Below are positions 13,150 to 38,520 of a DNA stretch of 64,000 nt, in pieces. The notes below the pieces were generated by a model that saw only the letters and a list, made by a program, of their open reading frames with translations, was not told where the DNA came from and did not search any database. The translations under genes and the position numbers were made by a program. Within the stretch, counting starts at the first letter, position 1, and each line of letters begins with the position of its first letter. The DNA comes from Variovorax sp. ZS18.2.2 (GTDB taxonomy: Bacteria; Pseudomonadota; Gammaproteobacteria; Burkholderiales; Burkholderiaceae_C), in contig NZ_JANLNM010000014.1 of assembly GCF_024701975.1 (NCBI RefSeq), positions 1-64,000 of the forward strand, read 5' to 3'.

Positions 13150-14322
13150 TCAACGCGAGGGCGGCCGGGACACTGCGCCTGCAATGATCATCTTCTGAAT
13201 CTCTGACGTGCCCTCGTAGATGCGCAAGGCCCTGATTTGGCGGAACAGTTGCTCGGGCTCTGAGTCCGCAACGAGGCCAGCGGCCCCGAACAGCTGCACC
13301 ACGTCGTCCACGACGCGCGAAGCGCCGTCCGTGGCATGCAGCTTAGCCATGCTCGCATGGGCCGCCACATCGCGAACGCCTGTGTCGAATTCCCAGGCAG
13401 CGCGCGCCACGAGCAGTGCCGTGGTGTCGAGGTGCAAGGACATGCCGGACAGCTTTTCGATGGTGAACTGGGTCTGGATCAGCTTCGAGCCCGCCACGTT
13501 GCGCTGTCGCGACCAATCCGTGGCGCAGCGCATCGCACGGCGGCAGAAGCCGAGTGCCGCGGCGCCCACACTCACGCGGTAAAGATCGAGGATCTCGGTG
13601 GCGTATATGAAGCCCTTGCCTGGCTCTCCGATGAGCGCCGTTGCAGGCAGCAGGCACTGACTGAAATGGAGACTGGAGAACGCGCGCGGCGCGAGCAGGT
13701 CGATGCGTTCGGTACGCAATCCCGAGGTGCTGGCCGGGACCCAGAGAAAGCTAAGACCAAGTCCACCTGGTCCTTCCCCGGTGCGTGCAAGTACCGCATG
13801 GTGGTCGGCAATAGGTCCGTTCGAGATCCAAGTCTTGGTGCCGTCAAGCACATAGCCCGCGCCCTCGCGCACCGCCTGCGACTTGAGCGCTGCGAGATTG
13901 GACCCACTCTCGGACTCGGACAACGCCAACGCACCGATGCTCCGGCCTTCGCGCATCGCAGGGATGACGCAGGCTCGTTGCTCGGGCGAGCCGTACCAGG
14001 CAAGCGGTGCAGCGGCGAGGCCCTGAATCGAGAACGCGAAATCGAGTAGGTCGTCGAGGAAGGCCAGCGCTTCGCGGATCAGGCACAGCGAACGCACATC
14101 GGGGCGTTGCCGGCCACTGTCCGCCTCGACCGCGTGCCGCAGCCAACCGGCCTCGCCGAGCAGCCGTGTGTAGACGCGCCCCTTTTCCTCGACATCTAGC
14201 GCGCGATGTTCGTGCGGCAGTTGCCGATGCCGCTCAACCCAAGCTTCCAGGTCGGCCGCGAGCGCGTGGTGCCGTTCTTCGTAGAAGGGTAGTCGCAGGA
14301 TGGAGGGGTCAAACAGGGTCAT
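13150..14322 (-). CDS. Acyl-CoA dehydrogenase-like flavoenzyme
   Basis: A 390-aa FAD enzyme of normal family length. ALSESESGSN near residues 130-139 is the FAD/substrate loop, TKTWISNG follows, and RIYEGTSEIQ near the end holds the usual catalytic Glu. It would introduce a C2-C3 double bond into an acyl thioester, either on CoA or, given the cluster, on the carrier protein encoded upstream. Last gene of the 11-gene operon. The ATG at 14322 overlaps the phosphopantetheinyl transferase stop by 4 nt (ATGA); a much longer frame upstream is a shadow of that gene. Confidence 0.85.
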   Translation of the reverse strand: MTLFDPSILRLPFYEERHHALAADLEAWVERHRQLPHEHRALDVEEKGRVYTRLLGEAGWLRHAVEADSGRQRPDVRSLCLIREALAFLDDLLDFAFSIQGLAAAPLAWYGSPEQRACVIPAMREGRSIGALALSESESGSNLAALKSQAVREGAGYVLDGTKTWISNGPIADHHAVLARTGEGPGGLGLSFLWVPASTSGLRTERIDLLAPRAFSSLHFSQCLLPATALIGEPGKGFIYATEILDLYRVSVGAAALGFCRRAMRCATDWSRQRNVAGSKLIQTQFTIEKLSGMSLHLDTTALLVARAAWEFDTGVRDVAAHASMAKLHATDGASRVVDDVVQLFGAAGLVADSEPEQLFRQIRALRIYEGTSEIQKMIIAGAVSRPPSR

Positions 14323-15035
14323 GGCGTACAGGCTTCTCGAATAAGGGCGTCCGCGCACTTGGTGGCGGGCGGATGAAGGCCGCCGCGTTGGCGAGTGAGC
14401 GCGCCGGCCAATCCGCTTGGCAACCCGGGGAGATCGTTGAGGGTCCACCAGCCTGGTCGTCCTTCGGCATCCGATGCACGCAGGGTCACGGGTCCTGGCT
14501 CGCAGCCGACGCTCACCGAGGCCATCGACCGATGCAGGCCTGTGCCGATGGCCTTGAGCAAGGCTTCCTTGCGCGTCCAGAACTGCGCGAGTACATGCGT
14601 TGCACACGGTTCTTTGAGCTGGCTCCAGGCCTCTCTCTCCGCTGTAGAAAGAATCATCCGGGCCAACCCGTCCTTCCGACCCGCGAAACGATCGAGGCAC
14701 TCGATGTCGATGCCCACGGCGCACTCACCGACGGCGGCGGCCCAATGGCTGTCGGTGTGGCTGAGGCTGAAGCGCCATGGCAACGCATCTAGCATCGGCT
14801 TGTCCGCCGGACCGGTGACGGCGAATTTCAGGTCCGCCGGCGGCATCTCGAGTCGCTCTCCGAGCCACAGCCGAAGCGCCGCATGGCTGGCGCGGAAACG
14901 CTCGGCATCGGCCTGCCGGATGAAGCGGTTCGCACGATCGAGTTCATCGGAGGACAGAATGCGCTCGCACACCTCCAGCGGCCAGGCCTCGACATCGATG
15001 GGACGGCACGTCCAAGCTTCGATGCGCACCCTCAT
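14319..15035 (-). CDS. 4'-phosphopantetheinyl transferase, Sfp type
   Basis: A 238-aa enzyme that transfers phosphopantetheine from CoA to a serine of carrier proteins. Both signature motifs are present: GIDIE near residues 108-112 (Mg-binding) and FWTRKEALLKA near 151-161. A SLSHTDSHWAAAV segment, also conserved, precedes them. It overlaps its neighbours by 4 nt at both ends. The likely clients are the three carriers of the locus: the 86-aa and 95-aa stand-alone proteins and the T domain of the NRPS. Its presence inside the operon supports a carrier-based pathway under common control. Confidence 0.9.
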   Translation of the reverse strand: MRVRIEAWTCRPIDVEAWPLEVCERILSSDELDRANRFIRQADAERFRASHAALRLWLGERLEMPPADLKFAVTGPADKPMLDALPWRFSLSHTDSHWAAAVGECAVGIDIECLDRFAGRKDGLARMILSTAEREAWSQLKEPCATHVLAQFWTRKEALLKAIGTGLHRSMASVSVGCEPGPVTLRASDAEGRPGWWTLNDLPGLPSGLAGALTRQRGGLHPPATKCADALIREACTP

Positions 15036-15856
15036 TCTCCCTGTCCGAGCGGTAATTCCGTATCCGGTTCAGGTTCGAACTCACCGGCGTCGCATCCCAC
15101 GAGCGTGCGCCGCGCGAAGTAGGCGAATGCGGCTTCCGAACGCTTGCCTGCCAGAATCCAGTCGTGCGCCTCCCTGGCCAGCGCAGGGTTGAGTTCCTTG
15201 ATCGTTCCGACCGCTTCGGCCAGCAGCTGCAACCGGGCCGCGCGTTCGCATTGAATCGCCACGACGCAGGCCTCTTCGACCGAACGCCCGGTCGCCACAA
15301 GCCCGTGGTGCGCGAGCAGTGCCGCGCGTTTGCCGCCGAGCACGCCCGAGATCAATTCGCCCTCGCTGTTGCCGACCGGCACGCCCGGCCATTCGCCGAG
15401 GAAGGCGACGTCGTCGTAGAGCATACATGCGTCCATCTGCGCGATCTTGAGCGCACGACCGACCATCGACAGCGCACTGACGTGCAGCGGATGCGTATGG
15501 ACGATGCACTGCACATCGGGCCTGGCGCGGTAGATCCAGCTGTGGAAACGGTTGGCAGGGTTGGCCATGCCCGATCCGCCGAGCACCTCGAGGTCTTCAT
15601 CGACGACCAGCAGGTTGGAGGGCCATATTTCGTCGAAGCCGAGCCCGAGCCGCTGCGTGAAGTAAGTGCCCGGCTTGGGCGCGCGCGCCGTGATCTGGCC
15701 CGCCAGGCCAGAGTCATGCCCCTGGGAAAACAGGATGCGGCAGGTCAGCGCGACTTTCTGCCGCAAGCTCCAGCGAGGCGATTCGAGGTGCCGCTGCATC
15801 GACGCCTTGGCACGCAGCACCAGATCGTCCTTGCCGAGGGAGAAGGTCGTGGCCAT
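15032..15856 (-). CDS. Class II aldolase/adducin-family protein
   Basis: A 274-aa protein with the zinc-binding histidines of class II aldolases: IVHTHPLH near residues 122-129 and LLAHHGLVATG near 188-198, plus LGFDEIWPSN. Family members do retro-aldol cleavage, decarboxylation or epimerisation of sugar-like or acyl substrates; a decarboxylase or retro-aldolase acting on a tethered beta-hydroxy acid would suit this cluster, but this is inference. Start ATG at 15856, 28 nt after the oxygenase stop. The frame extends further upstream without support. Confidence 0.8.
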   Translation of the reverse strand: MATTFSLGKDDLVLRAKASMQRHLESPRWSLRQKVALTCRILFSQGHDSGLAGQITARAPKPGTYFTQRLGLGFDEIWPSNLLVVDEDLEVLGGSGMANPANRFHSWIYRARPDVQCIVHTHPLHVSALSMVGRALKIAQMDACMLYDDVAFLGEWPGVPVGNSEGELISGVLGGKRAALLAHHGLVATGRSVEEACVVAIQCERAARLQLLAEAVGTIKELNPALAREAHDWILAGKRSEAAFAYFARRTLVGCDAGEFEPEPDTELPLGQGE

Positions 15857-15884
15857 GCGCGGTTCTTTGCCTGTTCTTTCTGCG

Positions 15885-16601
15885 TCAGTGCGTCGGCGCC
15901 GTGGCCCTGTCGGCCGGTGCCGTTCTTGTTTGACATTGCGCCTCGATCGACTCGAAGAAATCGAGCCGCGCGTCCACCAGTGCATTGCCCGCGCTGAGCA
16001 TCCGCGCAATCTGGTCGGGATTCGTGCGCGCCAATTCGACCATGATGTTCTGCATCGTGTCGGCATGGCCGTCGTCGCATTCGACATGGATGCGGAAGAA
16101 CTCCACCGCATCGTCGGTGACACCGGCGGCCTTGAAGCCCTTGAGCAGGTCGGTGTAGATTGAGGGCACGAGCGCCTCCGCGCCCAGGCACAGTGCGCCG
16201 AGGCCGCGTGCCACGTTGGCGTCGCGGCAGTGATCGAACATCGTGTCGATCAGCCGGCGGGTCCCGAGCAAGGGGCGCTGGCCTTCCTGAGAAAGTTCGA
16301 AATGGATCAGCATGTTGCGATAGAGCACGCTGTGCGGCGTGGCGCTGTCCTCGGTCAGTCCGAGTTCCTCGCAAAGGTTCTCGGCCAGCCGCGAGACCTG
16401 TGTGTTGCTCGGCAGATTGGCCATCAGCGCGCAGAGGTAGCGTGTGAAGTAGCTGCTGTAGATGCCCTGCTGCACTAGGAACAGCTTGAGTTCGTTGAGT
16501 TCGACCTCTCCCTGCCGGCAACGCACGAGGAACCTGCTGTCGCGGATGCGATGGACCAGCTTCGACTTGAAATCTTCCAGCAGGGATAAATGCTCTTCCA
16601 T
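15885..16601 (-). CDS. Haem-oxygenase-like iron oxygenase (HDO/PqqC-like)
   Basis: A 238-aa all-helical protein. It has a NLCEELG helix near residues 88-94 and IHVECDDGHADTM near 172-184, which fits the Glu/His plus His-x-x-x-Asp-x-x-His iron ligands of haem-oxygenase-like di-iron oxidases (UndA, BesC, SznF, CADD). These enzymes do N-oxygenation, C-C fragmentation or decarboxylative desaturation of amino or fatty acids. ATG at 16601. The ferredoxin two genes upstream could supply electrons. Of all tailoring enzymes here this is the one most likely to give the product unusual chemistry. The exact reaction cannot be read from sequence. Confidence 0.75.
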   Translation of the reverse strand: MEEHLSLLEDFKSKLVHRIRDSRFLVRCRQGEVELNELKLFLVQQGIYSSYFTRYLCALMANLPSNTQVSRLAENLCEELGLTEDSATPHSVLYRNMLIHFELSQEGQRPLLGTRRLIDTMFDHCRDANVARGLGALCLGAEALVPSIYTDLLKGFKAAGVTDDAVEFFRIHVECDDGHADTMQNIMVELARTNPDQIARMLSAGNALVDARLDFFESIEAQCQTRTAPADRATAPTH

Positions 16602-16617: not shown

Positions 16618-17544
16618 TCAGATATGGTGGGTGATCGGCGCGCGGGCCAGGTACGCCGCCACGGCCGCCTGTAGGCTTGACGAGGTGTGCACGCCGAAAT
16701 GGCCGCTGCCCGGCACGCCGCGAAAAAGGGCCCCCGGGATGCAGCGCGCCACGGCCTGCGAGGTCTGGGCATGGATGATCGCGTCCTCGTCGCAATGCAG
16801 GACCAGTGTCGGCGGCCGGATGCGCGCGAGATGGCGCGACCAGTCGACCTCGAGGCATGCGGCCTGAAGCTGGGCGTAGCGGTAGGTTGACTCAGCGGTA
16901 TCGAAGGGAAGCCCGTTCAGCAGCGACAGCGCGGGATTGTCGTCGCCGCCTTCGGTGTCGGCGCCCTTTTGGAGCAGTGCACGAACCAGCGCGGCATAGC
17001 GGGTGCCGCCAGTCACCACCTTGGGCCACAGCGGCAACATGGTGCGCTGGTAGTCACTCTTTTCCAGCGCGTCGGGCAGTTCGATCGACGGACTGATGAG
17101 GCACAGGCGCTGCGTATCCAGCAGCCCATTCGCCACCGCGTACGCTGCGATGTTGGCGCCCGAGCAGAAGGCCACGATCGCATGAACGGCCTTGGCTGGG
17201 CGGGGCAAAACCGCCACCGCGTCGAGCGCCTGCTGCCGGATCGACAGATCGACTTCCGGATCGAAGGCATCGAAATCCGGCAGCCCGCGCGACTCCCATG
17301 TCACGACATGATGGTCGCGCGCCAGCCGCTTGGCCAGCGCCGCCATGAACAACACCGAGATGCCCAGCGCATTCACCAGCAGCACCGTCGGCTTGCGCTC
17401 GTCGCCGGCTTCGAACACTGCGAGCCGCACGTCGTCATCCGTGGTCGCGGTGCGTTGGCGAAAGACACCCGCGCCTTCGACGACAACGGCGAGCGAGCGA
17501 TGCGCTTCGCAAAGATAGGGCAGGCGATGGGTCTCGAGGGCCAT
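16618..17544 (-). CDS. Alpha/beta hydrolase
   Basis: A 308-aa hydrolase. The nucleophile elbow reads VAFCSGANIA near residues 118-127 (Ser in place, but flanked by Cys-x-Gly instead of Gly-x-Ser-x-Gly), an LVLHCDEDAIIH strand carries the acid residue, and SGHFGVH near the end carries the His. Such enzymes act as thioesterases or hydrolases in biosynthetic clusters. ATG at 17544, 13 nt after the ferredoxin stop. It could release or edit the acyl chain from the carrier protein, or cleave an intermediate. Confidence 0.75.
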   Translation of the reverse strand: MALETHRLPYLCEAHRSLAVVVEGAGVFRQRTATTDDDVRLAVFEAGDERKPTVLLVNALGISVLFMAALAKRLARDHHVVTWESRGLPDFDAFDPEVDLSIRQQALDAVAVLPRPAKAVHAIVAFCSGANIAAYAVANGLLDTQRLCLISPSIELPDALEKSDYQRTMLPLWPKVVTGGTRYAALVRALLQKGADTEGGDDNPALSLLNGLPFDTAESTYRYAQLQAACLEVDWSRHLARIRPPTLVLHCDEDAIIHAQTSQAVARCIPGALFRGVPGSGHFGVHTSSSLQAAVAAYLARAPITHHI

Positions 17545-17557: not shown

Positions 17558-17881
17558 CTAGCGGACCAGTTCGGCGAGCTTCCCGGACACCGAAGCCCAG
17601 CGCTCCGCATCCGGCAACGGGTCTTTGCGATCGCAGATCATGGGCCAACTCTGCGCAAGCTCGCGGTTCAATTCCAGGTACTCGATCTGACCCGCATCGA
17701 GGCGGTCATGCGGCAGGATCGCCTGCACCGGGCACTCGGGTTCGCAGACGCCGCAATCGATGCAGACATCTGGATCGATCACGAGGAAATTGGGCCCCTC
17801 GTGAAAGCAGTCGACAGGGCACACAGACACGCAGTCGGTGTGTTTGCATTGGATGCATTTCTCGGTCACCACGTAGGGCAT
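17558..17881 (-). CDS. fdxA: Seven-iron ferredoxin, FdxA type
   Basis: A 107-aa ferredoxin with [17 protein letters not shown] at the start, CPVDCF, and then [13 protein letters not shown]: the cysteine set for one 3Fe-4S and one 4Fe-4S cluster, and normal length for FdxA. As a housekeeping protein FdxA is common, so this copy inside a biosynthetic operon is likely a dedicated electron donor, most plausibly for the haem-oxygenase-like enzyme. Gaps of 13-15 nt to both neighbours. Confidence 0.9.
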
Positions 17882-17896: not shown

Positions 17897-19003
17897 TCAG
17901 ACGCTGGAAAGGGTGCTCGGTGCACCGCGCGCCGGTTGCGATGTGGCCGCGCGCTGCCGGATCGCGAAGCGTCCCAGCAACGGATGCATCACGACGGCAC
18001 CCACGGTGCACTCGCGCCGCATGTCGCCATTTCCTTCGACATGCAGAGGGGGCGTTTGCAGGAATGCGAAGCAGGCAGAGGCCGTCGCATCGGTCCCAAG
18101 CGAACGCAGCGCCGTCGTGCAGGCTTGTTCGCGTCGCAGCGACGAGGTGCGAGCAAACGGATTCAACTCGTCGCGCGAATGAAAATCGGGATGCAGGAAA
18201 TGATTTGCGTGAACACAAGAAGTCTTGTGCTCGGTGACGCGTACCGAATTGAGGATGTATTCGACCACCACCAGACGGCGACCATCGGTGATCATGAGCG
18301 CGCGCGAACTCGCGAGCGGCAGTTGCCGCAACAGTGCAATGCATTCGTCCACGCTCGCGCATTCGTCGAGCAGGTGCCGTATCGCCATGTAGCCCGGAAT
18401 GCCAGGTTGCCAGTCGCCGCCCAGCACAAGGTTGAGGCCGATCGCGAGGCCACGGTCGTTCATCCCTAAATAGCCGAGCAGGCCGGTGAAGCTCGCCATC
18501 AACAGTCGCCTACCGGACGCCGCGTGAGTCAAGTCCAGCACGCACAGTTCGGCATGGAGGTCGCCATTGAGGTCGATGGTTTGGCCCAGCACCGTCGATG
18601 TGCCGCCGAGACGGCCGAAGGTCGTGCAGTCTCCGGCGGCGGGCCGCACAGACTGGTAACCGGTGAGTTCGCGCCGCAGCTGCAGCAGATAGGCATCCGA
18701 CACCGAGATTTCCGCGCCGTGCGCGAGGCCATTCAGTTCCTGCGCCATACCGGGCAGCGATCGCTCGATCACCCGCATGTGGCGACCGATCTCGCGCCGT
18801 AGCGCCTGCACATCCCCCACATGCGCGGCAAGCACCTCAAGCCCAGCGAGGCGGCGGCCGAGGAAGCGGTGGATCGCGCCGCGTTGCGCGGTGCCGATCT
18901 GCACGCCCAACTCGAAGCGACTGCCGCTCGCACGCACTAGCGTGCCCGGCGCAAGTTCCGACGCGACAGACAGCAGGGGAGCCGCCAGCGCACTTTCAGT
19001 CAC
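17897..19003 (-). CDS. C45-type acyltransferase (isopenicillin N acyltransferase-like Ntn hydrolase)
   Basis: A 368-aa protein of the acyl-CoA:6-aminopenicillanate acyltransferase group. The autocatalytic site is GDCTTFG near residues 142-148, with Cys expected to become the N-terminal nucleophile after self-cleavage, followed by LGQTIDLNGD and GLLGYLGMNDRGLAIGLN, all typical. Enzymes of this group form or hydrolyse amides with acyl-CoA or acyl thioester donors. With no condensation domain in the locus, it is a good candidate for the amide-forming step that joins the acyl part and the amino acid part. Overlaps the GNAT gene by 8 nt. Confidence 0.85.
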   Translation of the reverse strand: MTESALAAPLLSVASELAPGTLVRASGSRFELGVQIGTAQRGAIHRFLGRRLAGLEVLAAHVGDVQALRREIGRHMRVIERSLPGMAQELNGLAHGAEISVSDAYLLQLRRELTGYQSVRPAAGDCTTFGRLGGTSTVLGQTIDLNGDLHAELCVLDLTHAASGRRLLMASFTGLLGYLGMNDRGLAIGLNLVLGGDWQPGIPGYMAIRHLLDECASVDECIALLRQLPLASSRALMITDGRRLVVVEYILNSVRVTEHKTSCVHANHFLHPDFHSRDELNPFARTSSLRREQACTTALRSLGTDATASACFAFLQTPPLHVEGNGDMRRECTVGAVVMHPLLGRFAIRQRAATSQPARGAPSTLSSV

Positions 19004-19586
19004 CGAATCGCTCCGTGCGCAACCGCGGCCACTCGGATTTCAGGATGCTGTAGTAAACCGCATCGCGTCGGCGCCCGCTTGGCATGTAGTTGAAGCTGCG
19101 GAAAGTGCCTTCCTCGGTCGCACCGATGCCTTCGAGACCACGCCGGGCGCGCGTGTTGAGGATGTCGGTCTTGAACTCCACGCGCTCACATTCGAGCGCA
19201 CCGAAGGCGTGTGCAAGCAGCAGGCCTTTGACCGAGCGATTGAGGCCAGTTCCGCGGTAGGCCTCGCCGAGCCAGGACCAGCCGATTTCCAGCCGACGGT
19301 CAGCGCCCGCGAGGTTGCCGAACGAAGTGCTGCCCGCGATCTGGCCGCTGCGCTTGTCGATGATCGAGAACACGATGCGCGTGCCGTTGAGCGTCTCCTG
19401 GATGCCCTTCTCAACAAAGGCGTCGAGGCTCGCCTCATCGGTGATGGTGGAGACGAAGTAGGTCCAGATGCCGGGGTCGAAGGCAATCCGGGCATAGCCC
19501 GGTTTGTCGTCGATCGCGATGCGGCGCAACCGCACGATCTCGTTCTCGAGCGTTGCGTCGCGCAGTGTCTGGTGGTTCCAATCCAT
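18996..19586 (-). CDS. GNAT N-acetyltransferase, RimJ/RimL type
   Basis: A 196-aa GNAT. It begins MDWNHQTLRDATLENE and shows the acetyl-CoA region ending RRLEIGWSWLGEAYRGTGLNRSVK in pieces: EIGWSW, YRGTGLN, and later FKTDILNTRARRGLEGIGA, typical of RimJ/RimL-like enzymes acting on amino groups. ATG at 19586 has AAGGGAG 6 nt upstream; the five preceding codons belong to the leader. Could acylate an amine in the pathway or serve self-protection by acetylation of the product. Confidence 0.85.
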   Translation of the reverse strand: MDWNHQTLRDATLENEIVRLRRIAIDDKPGYARIAFDPGIWTYFVSTITDEASLDAFVEKGIQETLNGTRIVFSIIDKRSGQIAGSTSFGNLAGADRRLEIGWSWLGEAYRGTGLNRSVKGLLLAHAFGALECERVEFKTDILNTRARRGLEGIGATEEGTFRSFNYMPSGRRRDAVYYSILKSEWPRLRTERFGD

Positions 19587-19609: not shown

Positions 19610-19870
19610 TCAGGCAGTGGCTCTGGTGGACAGCGTGACGAGGATGTCGCGCGGCGTCTTCATCTTTCCGATGTCATCCTCGGCGAGCTCGGTCAGGGGG
19701 ATTCCGGCTTCCGCGCAGGTGCTGCTCATGAGCATGATCATGTCGAGCGAGGTCAGGCCGTAGCCGTACGTCAAGTCCTCGTCCATGTCCAATTGAAAGG
19801 CTGGGTTGTCCGCCTGCTTGAGCGCCTTGGTGAGGTTGGAGCGGACGATGGCTTCGAGGTTGTGATTCAT
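19610..19870 (-). CDS. Stand-alone acyl carrier protein
   Basis: An 86-aa carrier protein. The phosphopantetheine site lies in GYGLTSLDMIMLM near residues 36-48, with Ser40 or Ser41 as the modified residue (Asp of the usual DSL is Thr here). Starts inside the stop of the acyl-AMP ligase gene (ATGA), a tight coupling that marks ligase and carrier as partners: the ligase would load this protein. Confidence 0.85.
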   Translation of the reverse strand: MNHNLEAIVRSNLTKALKQADNPAFQLDMDEDLTYGYGLTSLDMIMLMSSTCAEAGIPLTELAEDDIGKMKTPRDILVTLSTRATA

Positions 19871-29165: not shown

Positions 29166-29214
29166 AGAACAGCACGACTCGCCGCCTTCCCACCACCCTT
29201 TGAGGAGTCGTCTC

Positions 29215-30220: not shown

Positions 30221-30278
30221 ACGCTACACAGGCCAAGCCTGTGCAATGCGCCGACGTCTGTCACAAGGGAGAGGCGCC

Positions 30279-30851
30279 GTGGAAATTCTTGCAGGTAGGG
30301 CCGATGCGCTGGCACCGGGGCTGATGAGCGGGCTTGCGCGCTACCGCCACCGCGTGTTCGTCGAGAAGCTGGGCTGGAATCTCGCTTGCCCCGACGGCGC
30401 CGAACTCGACCAGTTCGATCGTGCCGACACCCTTTACCTGGTCGCTCGCCGGGACGACGGCGAACTGGTGGGCACCGCACGGCTGCTGCCGACGCATCGC
30501 CCTTATCTGCTCGGCGATGTGTTCCCACAGCTCATGGGTGCCTCGCCGCTGCCGAACACGCCCGACGTGTGGGAGCTCTCGCGCTTTGCGGCGGTTGACT
30601 TCGATGCCAGAGCCGCCGGCCCACTGAGCCAGTTCTCGTCGGTGATCACGATCGACCTGCTGCGCAAGGCGCTGTCGCTGGCAGCGCGCAAGGGCGTGCG
30701 GCGGCTGATCTCGGTTTCGCCACTGGGCGTGGAGCGGCTGCTGCGCACCGCCGGTTTTCGCGCGCGGCGCGCGGGGCCGCCGCTGGTGATCAACGGACAG
30801 TCGATCTTCGCGTGCTGGATTGAGGTGCAGGGCCAGCCATTGAACGATTGA
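30279..30851 (+). CDS. luxI: LuxI-family acyl-homoserine-lactone synthase
   Basis: A 190-aa AHL synthase of normal length. All family residues are visible: Arg23 and Phe27 (RHRVF), Trp33 (LGW), Asp44 and Asp47 (ELDQFDRAD), Arg68 (GTARLLPT), Phe82, and Glu99/Arg102 (WELSRFAA). It makes the signal from S-adenosylmethionine and an acyl thioester. The GTG at 30279 is preferred because AAGGGAGAGG is 4-6 nt upstream and because the ATG at 30246 would lie before the predicted transcription start. Autoinduction through the lux box just upstream is likely. Convergent with the EamA gene 21 nt away. Confidence 0.93.
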   Translation: MEILAGRADALAPGLMSGLARYRHRVFVEKLGWNLACPDGAELDQFDRADTLYLVARRDDGELVGTARLLPTHRPYLLGDVFPQLMGASPLPNTPDVWELSRFAAVDFDARAAGPLSQFSSVITIDLLRKALSLAARKGVRRLISVSPLGVERLLRTAGFRARRAGPPLVINGQSIFACWIEVQGQPLND

Positions 30852-31829: not shown

Positions 31830-32945
31830 CTAGTTTTTGCAGAGACTCGAGGATTCGCCCGCTGTTTTCCTGGCACGTTCATAGTCCGCGAGCATGGCCG
31901 CGCCCGCCGGGCCGGCCTGAGTCTTCCAGTTTTCGATCACGCTGCCGCCGGCCTCCTGCAGCTCGCGGCGGATCTCCGGCGCGGCCACGGCATGGACGAT
32001 CACGCCGTTGGACGCCATCGCGCGGCGGTTAGCCTGGGCTCGATCACGCATGACGTCCCACAGAGCGGTCTCAGTGTCGGCCGCCGCCCGGTCCACCGCA
32101 GACTTCAGCGCCTGCGGCAGCTTGTCGTAGGCCGTCTTGTTGACGACTGTGAAGGACAGGGGCGCCGCGTAATTCAGATCGGTGAAGTGCGGCAGGTGCT
32201 CCCACAGCCGCCGGCCCGCGCCGCCGTCGCCTGAGGACATCACGGCCGTGATGTCGCCGCTCTTGATACGCGGCATCGCCTCACCGAAGGGAACGTTGAC
32301 TGCGTAGACACCAAGCGAGCCCATCAGCGCCGCTGAGGTCGCGTCGTAGGTGCGCACGCGCAACCGCTTCAGATCGCTCATCGTATCAACAGCCCAGGCA
32401 GACCAAAGACCAGTGGCTGGCCACGGTGTGGAGTACAGCAGGTGCACGCCCTTGGCCTCGAAGGCGCTCGCATAGGTCTGGCGCGTCACGCTCTGCAGGC
32501 AGCGGGTATCAGTGGCCGACGAAGTTACGAAGGGCAACGACACCAGATTGAACACCGGCTCGACTTCACCGAGTGGCCCACCGTGGACATCTCCCACCTG
32601 GACTTCGCCCGCGGTCACGGCCCCCAGCATCGCGATTGCGCCGAGCGGATGGTCGTAGTGGGGCTTGATCTGCAGCGCGCCCTTCGAATGCTCGGCCAAG
32701 CGCTTACCGAAGGTGTCGAGGCCGACGCCGGGCATGGTGGTTGCAGGGTATTCGGAGCCCGCGACCCAAGTGACACCGTCACTGCCGCCGCCGGAATTGC
32801 CAGCGCTGTTCGCAGGTTGGGCGCCCGCCATCGAGGTCACGAGCATAGAGGTCATCATCAGGAGAGAACTATTCACCGAGCCACCTTGGATCAAAGAAAG
32901 AATAGACGCCCCGGGATGAGTCGCGGGAAGCGCCTCAACTGTCAC
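31830..32945 (-). CDS. TRAP transporter solute-binding protein (DctP-like), orphan
   Basis: A 371-aa protein if translation begins at the GTG overlapping the NRPS stop (GTGA). Another GTG at 32876 with AAGGTGG 4 nt upstream would give an N-terminus MNSSLLMMTSMLVTSMAGAQ, a hydrophobic leader ending in a possible cleavage site but lacking the usual positive charges. The body is DctP-like: FGKRLAEHSKGALQIKPHYD, NLVSLPFV, LKRLRVRTYDATSAAL and VPFGEAMPRIKSGDI. No DctQ or DctM membrane gene is near. It may bind the product or a precursor in the periplasm, or may be a leftover. Confidence 0.75.
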   Translation of the reverse strand: MTVEALPATHPGASILSLIQGGSVNSSLLMMTSMLVTSMAGAQPANSAGNSGGGSDGVTWVAGSEYPATTMPGVGLDTFGKRLAEHSKGALQIKPHYDHPLGAIAMLGAVTAGEVQVGDVHGGPLGEVEPVFNLVSLPFVTSSATDTRCLQSVTRQTYASAFEAKGVHLLYSTPWPATGLWSAWAVDTMSDLKRLRVRTYDATSAALMGSLGVYAVNVPFGEAMPRIKSGDITAVMSSGDGGAGRRLWEHLPHFTDLNYAAPLSFTVVNKTAYDKLPQALKSAVDRAAADTETALWDVMRDRAQANRRAMASNGVIVHAVAAPEIRRELQEAGGSVIENWKTQAGPAGAAMLADYERARKTAGESSSLCKN

Positions 32946-35521
32946 AACAGCGGCGAGAGAACCTCCGCCAGTGTAGACGCCATGGCAGGCTGGCCCAGTC
33001 CCAGGTGGGTGCAGGCCAGCTCGACGGTGATCGGATCGCTCGACAGCAGGAGTGACCAGTCGAAAGATTCTCCCACCATTTGCAGCCCCGGCATGGGCAC
33101 CGTCGCGCGCACGTAGAGCATTTGCACATCAATGGGCTGGGGCACGTAGCGCCGCCCGATCGAGATGCAGTTTCGAACCAGGCGGGCCAGCCTTTGCGCA
33201 TGCGCGAGATTGAACTCGGCCGGCACCGCGCGCTCGAACTGCGCGACGCGTACCAGGTCTTCGAGCGTCGCGATCTCCCCGCGCACGTCGCGATGCGGCG
33301 ATGCGGGGTCGAGCAACTGATTGGCGAGTGCCTTCACCGCCGCCGCGTCGCCGGGCGGGCCATGGTCTTGCGAGGGCACCGGTGTATCGAGCAACGCAAG
33401 TAGTGAAATCTCCTCGCCCTCGCTTTCTAGCTGGGCTGCAAGCTCGTAGGCGACCAGCCCACCAAAGGACCAGCCCAACACCCGGTACGGCCCATGTGGC
33501 TGGACGGCGCGAATCGCGCTCTTGTAGCGCGATGCCATCGCCTCGACCGAACTCGCGAGGGTCTCGCCGGCTTCCAGCCCGGAGGCCTGGATGCCGAAGA
33601 CCGGAACGTCGACAGGCAGGCGATCGGCCAGCGCCTTGTAGCGAAACGCGGTGCCGCCCACAGGGTGGACGCAATACAGCGGCGGTACACCTTCGCCCTG
33701 CTTCAATGTCACGAGCGGTTCGTAATGCGGATCGACTTGCGGCGCGCGCAGCCTTGCGGCCAGCGCCTCGATGGTCGGATGCTCGAACAGCGTGCGGACC
33801 GGCAGTTGCGTGCCGAATGCTCGATTGACTTGCTGCACCACGCTGGAGGCGGCTAGCGAAGTGCCTCCACTCAGGAAGAAGTCGCTGCGCCGGCCGATGG
33901 CCGGCGCAGCGAGCACCGCGCCCCAGATGCGCTTCAGTATGACTTCGACGTTGTCGCCGCTGGCCGGGTCGACATAGTCGTCTTCCTCTTCCTCCTTCAC
34001 CGCGATGTTGGAGGGCTTCGGCAGGCCTTGCCGACTTACCTTGCCGTTCGGCTCTACCGGCAGGGCATCCATCACCATGATGCGCGACGGCACCATGTAG
34101 TGCGGCAAGTGGCGCCGCAGATGGGTTAGCAGCTCGGGCACCAGCGACGAGCTCGCCTTGTCGCTAGCGACATAACCCACCAGCCGGCTTTGAGCGTTGG
34201 CCTCCCAGACCGTCGCGACGGCCTGGCGCACATCGCCATGTCGCATCAGCGTCGCCTCGATCTCGCCGATCTCAATGCGATAGCCGTTGAGCTTGACCTG
34301 ATGGTCGATGCGGCCGAGGAACTCGAGGCTGCCGTCGTCGAGCCAGCGGCCCAGATCGCCGGTGCGATAGATGCGCTCGCCGGTCGATGCAAGGCCGTCG
34401 ACAAACTTTTCGGCCGTCAGCTCCGGCCGATTCAGGTAGCCGCGCGCCAGTTGAACGCCGCCAATGCAGATTTCCCCGGTGGCATCGCCTTCGACCCGGT
34501 GGAAATTCTTGTCGAGGATGTAGATGCGCACGTTCGAAATCGGTGAACCAATCGGCACGATCCCATCGTCGCGCGCCGTCGCATGCCAGCACGTCACGCC
34601 GATGGAGGCCTCGGTCGGTCCGTAGACGTTGTGCAGTGGGGCGTCGCTCTGCTGCATGAAGGCCTCGACGGTGCGCGGAAACAGCGTCTCACCGCCGCAG
34701 AACGCATGGCGCAGCGAGCGAAAACCGCGTACCCCCCCCGTGTCCAGGAAGCGCTGGAGCATCGAGGGCAGGAAGTGGCTGATGGTGATGCATTCGCGCT
34801 CGATCAGTCTCGCCATATAAGGCGGATCGAGATGCCCGTCGGGTTTGGCAAGAACCGCGCAGGCGCCACTTATCAGCGGCAGAAACATCTCCCAGATCGA
34901 GACGTCGAAGCTCGCGGGCGTCTTCTGCAGCACCCGGTCGGTGGCTGCGACGTCGAAGGTTTCGCGCATCCAGCACAACCGATTCATGATGCCGGCATGC
35001 GTGCACATCACTCCTTTGGGCATGCCGGTGGAGCCCGAGGTATAGATGACGTAGGCGAGGCTCGGCGGATTCTCTCCGGCATCAGGCATGGCCGCAGCAT
35101 TGCTGTCTTCGTCGATTCCGTCGCTTTCGTCGCAACCGATCAACAGCGCGCGAGCCTTGCTGCGCGGCAGGTCGGGCAACAGTGCGGCATCCGTGATGGC
35201 GATCTCCGCGCCTGAATCCTCGAGCATGTAGGCGAGTCTCTCGATCGGATAGGACACGTCGAGCGGCAGATAGGCGCCGCCGGCCTTGAGGATGGCGAGC
35301 ACGGCGACGATGAAGTCGATCGAGCGGTTCAGGTAGACCGCCGCAATGCGCGGGGCGCAGGAGTCGGATGTGTCAAGCGCGCCGATGCGGCGCGCAAGCG
35401 CGTCCGCGCGCCGTTCGAGTTCGCCATAGCGGATGGTGCCGTGCGGGTCCTGCACGGCCACGGCATCGGGTGTCTCAGCGACTTGTCGCGCGAAGGCGCC
35501 GTGCAGGGTCTGCGGCTGCAT
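32942..35521 (-). CDS. Single-module NRPS: adenylation-carrier-thioesterase
   Basis: An 859-aa protein with domains A (about 1-510), T (about 520-595) and TE (about 620-859), and no condensation domain. A3 is YVIYTSGSTGMPKG; A4 FDVSIWEMF; A5 NVYGPTEASIG; A7 YRTGDLGRWLDDG; T has FFLSGGTSLAAS; TE has GWSFGGLVAYEL. By alignment to GrsA I read specificity residues D-V-W-H-F-G-V-I-G-(K): the DVWH start is shared with serine codes, the rest is not a match I know. Thus a small hydroxyl or related amino acid is plausible. ATG at 35521, 17 nt after the esterase gene; a longer upstream frame is a shadow. Its stop is coupled to the TRAP gene. Confidence 0.9.
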   Translation of the reverse strand: MQPQTLHGAFARQVAETPDAVAVQDPHGTIRYGELERRADALARRIGALDTSDSCAPRIAAVYLNRSIDFIVAVLAILKAGGAYLPLDVSYPIERLAYMLEDSGAEIAITDAALLPDLPRSKARALLIGCDESDGIDEDSNAAAMPDAGENPPSLAYVIYTSGSTGMPKGVMCTHAGIMNRLCWMRETFDVAATDRVLQKTPASFDVSIWEMFLPLISGACAVLAKPDGHLDPPYMARLIERECITISHFLPSMLQRFLDTGGVRGFRSLRHAFCGGETLFPRTVEAFMQQSDAPLHNVYGPTEASIGVTCWHATARDDGIVPIGSPISNVRIYILDKNFHRVEGDATGEICIGGVQLARGYLNRPELTAEKFVDGLASTGERIYRTGDLGRWLDDGSLEFLGRIDHQVKLNGYRIEIGEIEATLMRHGDVRQAVATVWEANAQSRLVGYVASDKASSSLVPELLTHLRRHLPHYMVPSRIMVMDALPVEPNGKVSRQGLPKPSNIAVKEEEEDDYVDPASGDNVEVILKRIWGAVLAAPAIGRRSDFFLSGGTSLAASSVVQQVNRAFGTQLPVRTLFEHPTIEALAARLRAPQVDPHYEPLVTLKQGEGVPPLYCVHPVGGTAFRYKALADRLPVDVPVFGIQASGLEAGETLASSVEAMASRYKSAIRAVQPHGPYRVLGWSFGGLVAYELAAQLESEGEEISLLALLDTPVPSQDHGPPGDAAAVKALANQLLDPASPHRDVRGEIATLEDLVRVAQFERAVPAEFNLAHAQRLARLVRNCISIGRRYVPQPIDVQMLYVRATVPMPGLQMVGESFDWSLLLSSDPITVELACTHLGLGQPAMASTLAEVLSPLL

Positions 35522-35538: not shown

Positions 35539-36213
35539 CTAGCGCGCGATCTCCTGCCGGTCCAGCAGACCTGATAGCCATTCGGACGACTCGTTTAGGA
35601 TTTCTGCGGTGAAGCCGTGGCCGATGCCGGGGCGCTCGCGATAGTCGATCTCGACCCCGAATTTTTTCAGTCGGTCGCGTGTCGCACGCGCCATCGGCAA
35701 AGGCACGATGGGGTTGTCTATGCCGTGGTATTCGAGCAGCTTCATGCCAGCCAACGCCTTGCGTGAGTCCTCCGAGGGAACCACCCGCGACAGCGCGCGC
35801 CCGTTGATGTTCACGAGCCCCTGGATCAGTCTCGGCTTCGACAGCAGCACCGACAACGCCATCGTGCCGCCCTGGCTGTGCCCGAGGATGTACATCGCGC
35901 TGGGCGCGCGTTCCACAGCCAGCGCATCGAGGTAGGCCAGCAGTGTTTTCAGGCTGTGCGTCTCCTCGTCCTCGCTGACGATCGGCCCGTCCGGCGTGCG
36001 TTCGAAGTAGAACCACCTGTGGGCGCCCGGCCCTATTCGCAGCGGCGCGCGCGGAGCGACAACCGCAAAGCGCGGATCGAACAGTGCCTCGTGCCTGAAC
36101 AGATGTTGTTCATAGGAAGCGAATCCATGCAGCAACACGAGCAGCGGCACGTTTGTCTGGCGACCAAGCGAAGACTCGCGCGCGACCTGCAGGAGGGAGT
36201 CGTCGGCCGACAT
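35539..36213 (-). CDS. Carboxylesterase/dienelactone-hydrolase-like protein
   Basis: A 224-aa alpha/beta hydrolase of the small carboxylesterase type. It shows LLVLLHGFASYEQHLF near residues 24-39, the nucleophile GHSQGG near 113-118, and a C-terminal PGIGHGFTAE with the His. Its start overlaps the carrier gene stop (TGATG). Possible roles are release of product, editing of the carrier, or lactone opening. Such enzymes also resist their own product in some clusters. Confidence 0.85.
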   Translation of the reverse strand: MSADDSLLQVARESSLGRQTNVPLLVLLHGFASYEQHLFRHEALFDPRFAVVAPRAPLRIGPGAHRWFYFERTPDGPIVSEDEETHSLKTLLAYLDALAVERAPSAMYILGHSQGGTMALSVLLSKPRLIQGLVNINGRALSRVVPSEDSRKALAGMKLLEYHGIDNPIVPLPMARATRDRLKKFGVEIDYRERPGIGHGFTAEILNESSEWLSGLLDRQEIAR

Positions 36214-36500
36214 CAGTGCTCTCTTGCGAGTGTTTCGCGCTTGCCGAAGCTGGCGCCAAGGAAGCGCACGAAATCGCCCACGGTATGGAACTTGGCGTTG
36301 AATACCTCGCTGTCGTCGAAGCTCAGCCCGAAGCGCTCCTCGAGCGCGACGAAGGCATGCAGGAATGTGACCGAGGAGATGCCGAGGCCTCCGGCAGCGA
36401 GCGGCGTCTCGTCGGAGACATCCGCAGGCTGCGGCGAGTCGACTTTTCTGCCCAGACAGAGCGCTTCGATGGCGGCAGTGCGGATTTCGAACTCGGTCAT
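36213..36500 (-). CDS. Second stand-alone carrier protein
   Basis: A 95-aa carrier protein. The site for phosphopantetheine is GGLGISSVTFLHAFVAL near residues 37-53, with Ser42 or Ser43. The following EERFGLSFDDSEV is typical helix III. Overlaps the TrpB-like gene by 4 nt (ATGA) and the esterase by 1 nt. Which enzyme loads it is open; the NRPS A domain or the operon 1 ligase are both possible. Confidence 0.85.
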   Translation of the reverse strand: MTEFEIRTAAIEALCLGRKVDSPQPADVSDETPLAAGGLGISSVTFLHAFVALEERFGLSFDDSEVFNAKFHTVGDFVRFLGASFGKRETLAREH

Positions 36501-37873
36501 GAAAGCTCCTGGGCCACGGCTTGGGATTCGTCGATGTCAGGCAACAGCGAGCGCGAACGCTGGATTTCTTCTTCGCTGACTTCCACGTTCTCCATGCTGC
36601 CGTCGAGGTATTCGGCATAGGCGGCGAGATCGAACATTCCATGGCCGCTGAGGCAAAACAGGATGGTCGGGGAACGCCCTTCCTCGCGCGCTCGGATTGC
36701 TTCCTGGATTGCGCCATGCACCGCATGCGCGGACTCGGGCGCAGGAAGAATGCCTTCCAGCTGTGAGAACAGCACGGCGCTTTCGAACACATCGCGCTGC
36801 GCGTAGGCCACCGCGTCGATCTGCTTGTGGTGATAGAGCGCGCTGATGAGCTTCGAACAGGCGTGGTAGCGCAAGCCGCCTGCATGCATGCCCGCAGGCT
36901 TGAACTGGTGCCCCAGCGTGTACATTTTCTGCAGCGGCGTCACGCCGGAACCGTCGGTGTAGTCGTAGCGATAGACGCCGCGCGTCAATTTGGGACAGGC
37001 CTGCGGCTCGACGCTGACGCAGCGCACATTCCGCTCGCCGCGCAGGCGCTCTCCGAGGAACGGAAAAGCGATGCCGCCGAAGTTGCTGCCTGCACCCAGC
37101 GAAGCAACCACGATGTCGGGGGGGTGCCCGAGCTCGAGCAGTTGCTGGCGCGCCTCGATGCCGATCACCGTGGAATGCAAGATCGAGTAGTTCTCGCCGC
37201 TGCCGACGCTGAGTTGCGAGCCCTCGTTGGCGTGGGCGTCCTCAAGCGCCTCGGTCACAGCGAAGGCGATGTTGCCGGAGTCCATGCCGCTGGCCGCAAG
37301 CCGGCTGCCGAAGTGGGTCTGGGTACTCGGGCTCGACAGCACGTTGGCGCCATAGAGTTGCATGATCGTACGGCGGTAGGGCTTGGCGCGATAGCTACTC
37401 CCCACCATGTAGACACGGCAGTCCATACCGAAGGCACGGCAGCCGATGGCCAGCGCGGTGCCCCACTGGCCGGCGCCAGTGCCGGTCGTGAGTCGCGTCG
37501 CACCGGCTGCCTTGTAGTAGTGGGCCTGTGCGATGGCGGTACTGAGCTTGTGGCTGCCGCTCGCGTTGCCGCCCTCGTACTTGAAGTAGATGCGTGCGGT
37601 GGTGCCCAGGTGCGCCTCGAGGTGCAGTGCGCGCTTTAGCGGCGTGGTGCGCCAGGCACGGTAGTGGTCGAGTACCTCGTCAGGGATCGGGATGTCGCGC
37701 TGTCGCGTGGTGTTCTGCCGTACCAGCGACAGCGGGATCTGCATCTTCATCCCCGACTGCGTGGCCTCCTCGCTGCGCGGCGGTTGGATGTCGGGCGGCA
37801 ACTCGAACGGCAGGTCGCCGATGATGTTGTACCAGTGGGTCGGAAGACCCTTCGCATCGACGCGGAAGCTCAT
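36497..37873 (-). CDS. TrpB-like PLP enzyme (TrpB2 type)
   Basis: A 458-aa fold-type II PLP enzyme. The Schiff-base lysine lies in GNASGSHKLSTA near residue 110; TGTGAGQWGTALA binds the substrate carboxylate; GAGSNFGG binds phosphate; SVEPQACPKLTRGVY and the C-terminal CLSGHGMFD follow. The long N-terminus and the overall pattern fit TrpB2 proteins more than standard TrpB, and no trpA is near. TrpB2 enzymes do beta-replacement on serine-type substrates. In this operon it may build the amino acid used by the NRPS. ATG at 37873 with GGAG 8 nt upstream. First gene of operon 2. Confidence 0.85.
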   Translation of the reverse strand: MSFRVDAKGLPTHWYNIIGDLPFELPPDIQPPRSEEATQSGMKMQIPLSLVRQNTTRQRDIPIPDEVLDHYRAWRTTPLKRALHLEAHLGTTARIYFKYEGGNASGSHKLSTAIAQAHYYKAAGATRLTTGTGAGQWGTALAIGCRAFGMDCRVYMVGSSYRAKPYRRTIMQLYGANVLSSPSTQTHFGSRLAASGMDSGNIAFAVTEALEDAHANEGSQLSVGSGENYSILHSTVIGIEARQQLLELGHPPDIVVASLGAGSNFGGIAFPFLGERLRGERNVRCVSVEPQACPKLTRGVYRYDYTDGSGVTPLQKMYTLGHQFKPAGMHAGGLRYHACSKLISALYHHKQIDAVAYAQRDVFESAVLFSQLEGILPAPESAHAVHGAIQEAIRAREEGRSPTILFCLSGHGMFDLAAYAEYLDGSMENVEVSEEEIQRSRSLLPDIDESQAVAQELS

Positions 37874-38016
37874 TGGCGGCACTCCATGTGGGTTGTCCGT
37901 TGCGTAGCGGCGTTACGGTGTCCACGCGGACATTGGCGTGGATGCCATCAAGGTCCGCACTGCGCGAAACCCGATGCCGGCACCCGGCCAAGATACGGCA
38001 AGAGTGCGATCTGCCC

Positions 38017-38036
38017 ACCTGCCAATAGTGGTAGTT
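38017..38036 (+). promoter_or_regulatory. Lux-box-like element B, divergent gap of operon 2 and NTF2-like gene
   Basis: ACCTGCCAATAGTGGTAGTT shares the CC-T/G-CCAA core and the TGGTAGTT half with the luxI box; the next four bases ACGC are also shared. It is centred 71 nt before the plus-strand ATG at 38098 and 153 nt before the minus-strand ATG at 37873. Its orientation fits the NTF2-like gene, but lux boxes are near-symmetric and no other box was found before operon 2, so it may serve both. Confidence 0.7.
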
Positions 38037-38097
38037 ACGCGGAGTGCGACGGTAGCGATAGAACTGGACCCACGCTCTCACCAGATAAAGGAAACAC

Positions 38098-38520
38098 ATG
38101 CCGACGCGCACATGGGCCCTGGCGTTCGCCAACGACTGGTGCGACGCGTGGAATCGCCGCGACCTCGACGCGGTGATGGCTCACTATGCCGACGAGGTAG
38201 AACTCAACTCACCGCTGGTCGTGCGCCGCTGGGGCATCGAAAGTGGCTGGCTGCGTGGCAAGGATCGACTGCGCGAGAATTTCGCGCGCGGCATGCAGAC
38301 GCCAGGTCTGCATTTCACTTTCGTCAACGTGCTGCTCGGAGCGCAATCGCTTTGCGTGATCTACCAGCGCGAGACCGGCGCACTCGTGACCGATCTGATT
38401 GAACTCGACGCCAGTGATCTTGCCGTGCGGGTAGTCGCCTGCCACGAGAACGGGGTACCTGCGCCCCAACAGCAGCCGACCTTGGCCGCCAGTGAGGGCA
38501 CGTCGGTCGGTCGCGAATAA
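38098..38520 (+). CDS. NTF2-like/SnoaL-like small protein
   Basis: A 140-aa protein with the cone-shaped NTF2 fold pattern: WALAFANDWCDAWNRRDLDA, then VMAHYADEVELNSPLV, then LRENFARGMQTPGLHFTF and VTDLIELD. SnoaL-like proteins include small cyclases and isomerases. Divergent from operon 2, with the lux-box-like element between, so it probably belongs to the quorum-controlled set. No catalytic residues can be assigned with confidence. Confidence 0.8.
   Translation: MPTRTWALAFANDWCDAWNRRDLDAVMAHYADEVELNSPLVVRRWGIESGWLRGKDRLRENFARGMQTPGLHFTFVNVLLGAQSLCVIYQRETGALVTDLIELDASDLAVRVVACHENGVPAPQQQPTLAASEGTSVGRE

Follow-up and report, generated by a model that had tools for sequence, protein, structure and literature searches.

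Our study reports on a biosynthetic locus at positions 13,150 to 38,520 of a 64,000-nucleotide stretch of the genome of Variovorax sp. ZS18.2.2 (hereafter the window), in which a putative heme hydrazine synthase is encoded together with carrier proteins, their predicted partner enzymes and an N-acyl homoserine lactone (AHL) signalling pair. Judged by homology, operon 1 of this locus combines two modules that are already described, a KinJ-type hydrazine synthase and a hydrazonoacetyl-carrier module. We propose that the locus directs an AHL-controlled pathway that forms a nitrogen-nitrogen (N-N) bond and carries it as far as a carrier-bound hydrazone, and we give this reading a probability of about 0.78; the N-N unit on its carrier looks like the warhead of a small reactive molecule. 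The first-pass annotation of the window had read the region as a specialised-metabolite locus, which our analysis supports, and had recognised no described cluster in it; the latter view stands for the 25-kb set as a whole, which we found nowhere else in our searches, and fails for operon 1, which merges two described modules. In the open-licence literature that we searched, which included an N-N review (PMC11705231) and whose supplementary tables may list some clusters, no description was found of a Variovorax cluster, of AHL control or of the operon 2 gene set.

Organization of operon 1

Operon 1 comprises 11 genes on the minus strand, running from 23327 to 13150 in our listing and translation of open reading frames. 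With the likely ATG or GTG starts, its widest gap is 28 nt (between the oxidase and aldolase genes) and five junctions overlap by 1-8 nt. Gene families were assigned with Pfam, and NCBIfam was used on ten proteins. The first gene encodes a 628-residue protein, assigned by profile comparison and active-site residues to the KinJ/FzmP/NegJ family of heme hydrazine synthases (21441..23327). It is followed by four genes whose predicted roles come from homology to the azaserine (azs), triacsin (tri) and dob systems: an AMP-dependent acyl ligase, the predicted loader of succinyl-hydrazinoacetate (19867..21441; AzsP/Tri29/DobC role); the carrier protein ACP1 that would receive it (19610..19870; AzsQ/Tri30/DobQ role); a GNAT protein, the predicted hydrazinoacetate N-succinyltransferase (18996..19586; AzsS/Tri31/DobB role); and a C45 peptidase, the predicted desuccinylase (17897..19003; AzsT/Tri14/DobA role; NF040521, 201 bits with a cut-off of 85). 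Next come a 7Fe-type ferredoxin, the predicted electron donor for the hydrazine synthase (17558..17881; Pfam Fer4 and DUF3470), an alpha/beta hydrolase that is a candidate release enzyme (16618..17544; Abhydrolase_6), and a haem-oxygenase-like dinuclear-metal oxidase (HDO), a candidate hydrazone N-oxidase (15885..16601; PF14518) with BesC as its best PDB match (7twa, E 3.6e-7). The operon closes with a class II aldolase family protein (15032..15856; PRK07090; NF005484, 419.6 bits with a cut-off of 261), an Sfp-type phosphopantetheinyl transferase (PPTase; 14319..15035; Pfam ACPS; AzsU/Tri15 role) and an acyl-CoA-dehydrogenase-like flavoenzyme, predicted by homology to oxidise hydrazine to hydrazone (13150..14322; AzsF/Tri22/DobM role). 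The queries used for the alpha/beta hydrolase, HDO and aldolase were a few codons too long upstream, and that for the peptide synthetase of operon 2 up to 34 codons; the starts were later corrected. Listing, translation and family searches bore out all the genes that the first-pass annotation had named, and their order; its reasoning had omitted the ferredoxin, the GNAT and the dehydrogenase, all three of which help to identify the pathway.

The 628-residue protein and its family

The 628-residue protein has no match in Pfam, NCBIfam or the PDB. On annotated plasmids, tblastn finds homologues in eight records, one from Burkholderia stagnalis and seven from Streptomyces, the latter with 27-29% identity over 54-65% of the query. 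In each of the four Streptomyces records that we examined, a ferredoxin gene comes immediately before the homologue; after it come glutamine-synthetase-like, purB-like and GNAT genes, and the set further includes an amidase gene in two cassettes and a C45 peptidase gene in the other two. This is the gene set of the hydrazino cassette of kinamycin and fosfazinomycin, in which the heme enzymes KinJ and FzmP, together with a ferredoxin, convert aspartate and nitrite to hydrazinosuccinate (PMC12154649).

A profile-profile alignment (hhalign) of the window protein and seven relatives with four Streptomyces homologues gave a probability of 99.9 and an E-value of 4.7e-35 over 493 columns; these cassette homologues stand in for KinJ, whose own sequence was not in the comparison. 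Residues R460, M461, N464, H467, H504, R514 and R539 of the window protein are identical in all 11 aligned sequences and correspond to R497, M498, N501, H504, H541 (the heme ligand), R551 and R570 of KinJ. The correspondence was drawn by spacing via three Streptomyces proteins, in which the KinJ offsets from M498 (-1 R, +3 N, +6 H, +43 H541, +53 R and +72 R) are exact; the article elsewhere numbers two of the arginines one lower (PMC12154649), and in the window protein R539 lies at +78 and not +72, a six-residue insertion preceding it. By these alignments the 628-residue protein is a member of the KinJ/FzmP/NegJ heme hydrazine synthase family, and the 7Fe ferredoxin would be its expected partner; 7Fe ferredoxins are also carried by Burkholderia clusters (PMC12154649).

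The window thus shares with the kinamycin, fosfazinomycin and negamycin systems the synthase family, the heme-ligand histidine, the active-site residues and a ferredoxin gene in the operon. It differs from them in that a carrier-protein hydrazone module replaces the glutamine-synthetase/lyase/amidase cassette, in the loss of the residue corresponding to KinJ C468, and in its predicted substrate, glycine. Two of the Streptomyces hydrazino cassettes (L046:6907-13872 and L052:4088-11029) carry the C45 gene where the two others have the amidase gene, which suggests that in these cassettes the two enzymes may perform one and the same deacylation.

A predicted hydrazonoacetyl-carrier module

In the published chemistry a GNAT enzyme succinylates hydrazinoacetate, an adenylase loads the product on a carrier, a flavoenzyme oxidises it and a C45 enzyme removes the succinyl group, with accounts that disagree on the order of oxidation and desuccinylation (PMC13061610, PMC10445470). 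Homologues of the GNAT, adenylase, carrier, dehydrogenase and C45 proteins all stand together in operon 1. Searched against plasmids, the window ligase matched 1722 records, and among the best 30 the first 15 had 48-60% identity before the 16th dropped to 33%; the C45 protein matched 67 records, and among the best 30 of these 16 had at least 43% identity and the other 14 no more than 30%. Besides B. stagnalis, five such records were examined, from S. lavendulae (L047), S. meliloti SM11 (L048), Streptomyces NBC_00158, S. hirsutus and Streptomyces NBC_00868. All five have genes for a SidA-type monooxygenase, an FAD oxidoreductase and a class I tRNA ligase just upstream (MetRS-type clusters), and in three of them a nonribosomal peptide synthetase (NRPS) gene sits between this trio and the ligase; four carry a C45 gene, S. 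hirsutus having an alpha/beta hydrolase instead.

The window ligase is 46-52% identical to the ligases of these MetRS-type clusters (5/5) and the window GNAT 56-59% identical to their GNATs (5/5); the GNAT likewise matches that of one kin-type cassette, L046, and does not match the shorter GNAT of another, L044. Identity of the C45 protein is 46-49% in all four MetRS-type clusters that have one and 44-49% to five cluster C45 proteins outside Burkholderia, with the GDCT motif kept. ACP1 matches three of the four MetRS-type carriers tried, at 31-34%, and the PPTase matches those of L047 and L049 at 27-28%. The dehydrogenase is 51-53% identical to those of L048 and L049 and weakly similar (30%) to that of L051; it is unmatched by the dehydrogenase of L047 and by the second one of L049, and none is annotated in the S. 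hirsutus stretch. These comparisons drew on azs-like plasmid clusters in place of the azs, tri and dob sequences. The KinJ-type gene lies directly before the ligase gene, taking the position of the three genes for hydrazinoacetate supply, and a Pfam scan of 20 proteins of the locus found no lysine N-hydroxylase, FAD oxidase or MetRS-cupin protein. From this homology the pathway very probably reaches the hydrazonoacetyl-ACP1 stage.

The choice of glycine over aspartate as the predicted substrate follows from the downstream enzymes, which belong to types that act on hydrazinoacetate, and from the Pfam results, which place no purB-like or glutamine-synthetase-like gene in the two operons. Were the synthase instead to use aspartate, as KinJ and FzmP do, the operon would process hydrazinosuccinate or a piece of it. 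L-Asp was the sole amino acid accepted by KinJ and FzmP among those tested (PMC12154649), and in two Streptomyces kin-type cassettes, too, a C45 gene adjoins the GNAT gene. Against this, the purB-like and glutamine-synthetase-like genes missing here are present in all four examined cassettes, the ligase, carrier and dehydrogenase of the window match the hydrazinoacetate module, and NegJ, of the same family, is cited as an enzyme that converts glycine to hydrazinoacetate (PMC12154649). We therefore regard aspartate as a quite improbable substrate, and retain hydrazinoacetate as the predicted product of the synthase.

Two of the plasmid clusters have features of their own. The S. meliloti plasmid pSmeSM11b (L048), typed as conjugative and hosted by a legume symbiont, carries an azaserine-like hydrazonoacetyl/NRPS cluster together with a 767-residue HDO-domain protein. 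The Streptomyces hydrazonoacetyl clusters L047 and L049 adjoin seryl-tRNA ligase, VlmB-like and flavin reductase genes, which we take to resemble a valanimycin-type set.

Relatives of the gene set

The 16S rRNA of this genome is 99.2% identical over 1500 bases to a Variovorax paradoxus record, in keeping with a Variovorax host. The gene for the 628-residue protein is rare, occurring in two of 299 genomes drawn from the family (this one and a metagenome-assembled genome, MAG) and in one of 101 of the genus (this one). A scan of one genome per species across 84,980 species, made with two short peptide patterns from which distant relatives may escape and with a sampling that may omit genomes near that of the window, gave seven loci: the Ramlibacter MAGs L004 and L010, B. 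stagnalis L005, Burkholderia sp. SRS-46 L006, B. ubonensis L007, a Telmatospirillum MAG L008 and an Oxalobacteraceae strain L009. L010 is a 12.5-kb contig that starts inside the KinJ-like gene and holds a partial locus, and the second half of L004 lies on another contig (L090). Since the gene set led by the 628-residue gene recurs in seven other genomes, once in part, it is more than a chance grouping. Within the stretches examined by tblastn the ligase is matched in all seven relatives, and ACP1 (41-49% identity), the ferredoxin (70-75%), the GNAT, the C45 protein and the alpha/beta hydrolase in six each, the exception being L010. The HDO is found in six (not L009), the aldolase in four (not L007, L009 or L010) and the dehydrogenase in five, in L005 via the second B. 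stagnalis strain L043; these five do not include L007, covered up to the end of its stretch, or L010, where none was found.

A further comparison is with L043, a type II polyketide cluster on the plas2 plasmid of B. stagnalis YJ-2, which shares with the window the LuxR gene, the lux-box motif described below and the genes for the KinJ-like protein, ligase, ACP1, GNAT, C45 protein, FdxA, hydrolase, HDO, aldolase and dehydrogenase, the common genes standing in one order. It adds a ketosynthase pair and genes for an AurF-type oxidase, an SDR protein, a dehydratase, an FNR protein and an MFS transporter; neither an operon 2 nor a luxI is annotated within 20 kb, in what is an incomplete annotation. 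The ketosynthase pair is present in six of the seven relatives, and the same six match the AurF-type diiron oxygenase of L043 (PF11583, checked for L043), whose gene, judged from sequence or from coordinates, is next to the cluster in L005-L009 and lies on L090 in the genome of L004. The relatives thus resemble type II polyketide clusters primed with a hydrazonoacetyl unit, a resemblance that the window does not share.

These observations raise the possibility that the window holds a reduced descendant of a Burkholderia-type diazo polyketide cluster, which would make a small hydrazone or diazo acid and to which operon 2 would be incidental. The ketosynthase pair and the oxidase of the six relatives are both missing from the window operons; elsewhere in the genome there are six ketosynthase matches at 31-38% identity, none of them on this contig (one inside a 1621-residue frame), and the search that finds the AurF-type oxidase in the relatives finds none in this genome. 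The frames of operon 1 are nevertheless intact and tightly packed, operon 2 shares its regulatory motif, and the 12.5-kb contig L010 also lacks a ketosynthase, and we consider such a reduction improbable.

Joint occurrence of the synthase, hydrazonoacetyl module, ketosynthases, reductase/dehydratase and AurF-type oxidase at L043:18914-38959, and also in L004-L009, makes these loci a candidate source of diazo polyketides in Gram-negative bacteria. A third arrangement of the shared core is seen in the Ramlibacter MAG stretch L003 (4006-6387), which at 12,461 bases appears to be the same contig as L010: here the KinJ-like, ligase and HDO genes are accompanied by an RND efflux set and by two cupin genes, one JmjC-like and one small.

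A shared lux-box-like motif

A LuxR-type AHL receptor (23555..24268, minus strand; Autoind_bind and GerE) and a LuxI-type AHL synthase (30246..30851, plus strand; Autoind_synth) are encoded between the two operons. A pattern search places lux-box-like sites before operon 1 (23439..23456, minus strand), before luxI (30203..30220, plus strand) and between trpB2 of operon 2 and an NTF2/SnoaL-like gene (38019..38036, plus strand; the gene at 38098..38520, plus strand, SnoaL_2). We derived the 18-base pattern, CTNCNAANNNTGGTAGTT, by visual inspection of intergenic regions, using the three window sites together with those of L004 and L005. The window contains it three times and 100 shuffles of the window not at all; across the 7.23-Mb genome (7,230,224 bases in 30 contigs) it again occurs three times, every one in this locus, and a reversed control pattern once. 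Allowing up to two mismatches, the palindromic core has five matches in the window where 0.5 would be expected, the extra ones at 36854 (inside trpB2) and 54086; among the window matches listed by a general palindrome scan the motif was absent.

Two of the sites from which the pattern was built came from other genera, and the motif precedes the KinJ-like gene in five of the seven relatives, including L006, L007 and L008 (two sites), which had no part in building it; it is absent in L009 and L010. In L004-L007 (4/7 relatives) a LuxR protein 50-57% identical to that of the window is encoded before the KinJ-like gene, and LuxI matches are found in the genomes of five of the seven, that of L009 being weak (3e-5). 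The components of an AHL regulon are thus present as LuxR, LuxI and a shared operator, the last by sequence alone, and the earlier view that both operons and the NTF2-like gene form one regulon under AHL control is strengthened by the motif at all three places. Between luxR and luxI lie genes for a sugar-type ABC importer, an FGGY kinase and a MarR protein (24496-30165, identified by family); the exact pattern is absent from this region, and the importer is probably a bystander.

The best LuxI proteins of L005 and L006, 49-51% identical to that of the window, are encoded on the cluster contig about 45 kb away, adjoining an alpha/beta hydrolase gene (28% to that of the window), an adenylation-domain gene (34% to the corresponding domain of the operon 2 NRPS) and a carrier-domain match; this group lies at L093:7706-12400 and at the same place in L094. 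These two 19-kb stretches were considered as counterparts of operon 2 and rejected, since they hold no lux-box pattern and no TrpB2, ACP2 or esterase match.

Operon 2

Operon 2 consists of six genes on the minus strand, from 37882 to 30873. They encode a TrpB2-like pyridoxal phosphate (PLP) enzyme (36497..37882; NF009057, 585.6 bits with a cut-off of 366), the carrier protein ACP2 (36213..36500; PP-binding), an esterase/phospholipase-like alpha/beta hydrolase (35539..36213; Abhydrolase_2), an adenylation-thiolation-thioesterase (A-T-TE) NRPS (32942..35521, with a start at 35521 or 35581; by Pfam and EntF alignment), a DctP-type solute-binding protein (31830..32945; DctP) and an EamA-type transporter, a candidate exporter (30873..31808; EamA).

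The NRPS aligns with E. coli EntF minus its C domain. Its adenylation pocket reads D V W H F G V I G K where that of EntF reads D V W H F S L V D K, at positions that we take to follow the numbering of the published code, and the sequence suggests a preference for serine or for a side chain that is similar but larger. TrpB2 enzymes convert serine to beta-substituted alanines, and by analogy the TrpB2-like enzyme may prepare the substrate of the A-T-TE protein.

The first-pass annotation had named a lack of joint occurrence of both operons among relatives as grounds against its reading, and within the genomes searched no joint occurrence was seen: operon 2 as a unit was recognised in none of the seven relatives, and the 628-residue gene is confined to this one genome of the 101 in the genus. 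Among the matches listed, those of the A-T-TE protein in relatives reach at most 46% identity and many lie inside far larger NRPSs; against plasmids it matched 2973 records, one of them in the 60-80% band. These searches brought up NRPSs of many kinds, and no orthologue was recognised among the matches listed, which for the plasmids were 15 and did not include the one at 60-80%. A TrpB2-type match among the relatives is found in the genome of L008 alone (45%, on another contig), together with an ACP2 match of 34%. No plasmid match exceeds 60% identity for TrpB2 (best 15 of 113) or for the esterase (best 12 of 82). In the 299 family genomes ACP2 has matches in 60 including its own, at 27-39% identity, the best other match scoring 30.8 bits.

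Two unrelated pathways might instead lie side by side with the regulator alone in common, an arrangement to which the lack of operon 2 beside the operon 1 relatives, the low score of the best other ACP2 match and the sugar importer separating the operons all lend weight. We find it unlikely, because the common lux-box motif occurs at three places alone, both operons included, the sole PPTase of the pair is in operon 1, and an azaserine-type pathway needs a serine-like adenylation domain such as operon 2 provides. That the two operons form one regulon and one pathway we consider fairly probable.

Comparison with azaserine-type systems

Like the azs, tri and dob systems, the window has GNAT, ligase, carrier, dehydrogenase, C45 and PPTase genes and a serine-like adenylation domain, with an HDO-fold oxidase as in azs. 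Unlike them, it has a KinJ-type source of hydrazinoacetate and lacks AzsD, a Cy domain, a polyketide synthase (PKS) and Dob3; it goes beyond them in its A-T-TE protein, ACP2, TrpB2, aldolase and AHL control. The N-nitroglycine cluster nng of Streptomyces noursei follows the logic proposed for the window, from hydrazinoacetate through a hydrazonoacetyl unit to serine, and it too includes genes for an HDO and for an alpha/beta hydrolase (PMC13274452). This likeness rests on the description in the article, the sequences of NngA, NngH and NngS lying outside our comparison, and the differences are those noted for azaserine. Knock-outs by others indicate that the HDO homologue NngH and the alpha/beta hydrolase NngA are needed for N-nitroglycine, and the HDO has been proposed as the oxidiser of the hydrazonoacetyl-serine unit (PMC13274452); an HDO acting as N-oxidase is also a published proposal for azaserine (PMC10445470). 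Diazeniumdiolate (fragin/leudiazen), ralfuranone-type A-T-TE, fluopsin, cispentacin and 1-alkene HDO pathways were also considered, and none explains the KinJ-like gene together with the GNAT, ligase and C45 genes.

Proposed pathway

Our comparisons suggest a model in which the KinJ-type enzyme, judged by its family, and the 7Fe ferredoxin would join nitrite to the amino group of glycine to give hydrazinoacetic acid. By homology to proven enzymes, the GNAT would then N-succinylate this product. Homology likewise predicts that the ligase loads succinyl-hydrazinoacetate on ACP1, made holo by the PPTase, that the flavoenzyme oxidises the hydrazine to a hydrazone and that the C45 enzyme removes the succinyl group to leave hydrazonoacetyl-ACP1. 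Beyond this point the model is conjectural: operon 2 might supply the acceptor, serine or a beta-substituted alanine made by TrpB2, on the A-T-TE protein; the hydrazonoacetyl group might be passed to this acceptor, with ACP2 as a possible intermediate carrier; oxidation of its terminal nitrogen by the HDO might give a diazo group, a nitramine or something similar; and the hydrolases could release the product for export by the EamA transporter.

Several observations weigh against this model. The window holds no counterpart of AzsD, which transfers acyl groups between carriers, or of the ester-making Cy domain; the AzsD-type ketosynthase III and Cy-A-CP NRPS of azaserine are both missing from the two operons, whose A-T-TE protein has neither a C nor a Cy domain, and the last stage is therefore without a known enzyme. 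Operon 2 was recognised in none of the seven relatives, and no Dob3-type (AurF-type) oxidase was found in the genome. For the synthase itself, identity to the Streptomyces homologues is 23-28%, with BLAST reaching the C-terminal two thirds alone, and a structure model from an eight-row alignment was poor (mean pLDDT 56, pTM 0.53) and was not used. By spacing, KinJ C468, which affects heme loading, corresponds to Thr434 in the window protein; the neighbouring C435 is kept here and is Ala in L005-L007, and C468, described as a heme-loading residue in one member (PMC12154649), is not known to define the family. The lux-box pattern was built from the window's own sites and two relatives, so its count of three is not independent, and no nitrite-forming CreDE pair is found among the genes of the two operons, to which that search was confined.

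An end product like azaserine or N-nitroglycine, suggested by analogy, is rather doubtful. We tentatively advance, at less than even odds, the broader idea of a PKS-free quorum-sensing hybrid in which a nitrite-dependent heme hydrazine synthase feeds the carrier module and a C-domain-less A-T-TE protein with TrpB2 provides a non-standard alanine as acceptor; through an unprecedented acyl transfer and with the HDO as N-oxidase, this would yield an amino acid that is new and bears a diazo, nitramine or hydrazone group.

Flanking features

An IS66-type transposase gene (8606-10186) adjoins the low side of the locus, and a 1279-residue RHS-repeat protein with strong AT skew is encoded at 47402-51241. 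The flanks at 10-14 kb and 38-48 kb have a G+C content of about 56-61%, and the cluster a higher one of 63-68%; the lower G+C of the flanks suggests that the cluster region was acquired.

Significance

Reactive N-N metabolites such as azaserine, kinamycin, triacsin and diazoacetone are rare and potent, and come mostly from actinomycetes. Some KinJ homologues adjoin azaserine, triacsin and N-nitroglycine genes, and a swap of hydrazine sources has already been remarked in print, with the suggestion that the two sources may be interchangeable (Kenney et al., PMC12154649). The locus makes this interchangeability directly testable and indicates the enzymes to combine for it, and strained-alkyne capture of diazo groups (PMC13061610) offers a simple probe for the product in dense cultures. 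In the reading that we favour, Gram-negative bacteria combine heme hydrazine synthase and hydrazonoacetyl-carrier modules that had been described separately and link them to AHL signalling, from where two further branches would lead off, a type II polyketide one in the relatives and an NRPS/PLP one in Variovorax sp. ZS18.2.2.

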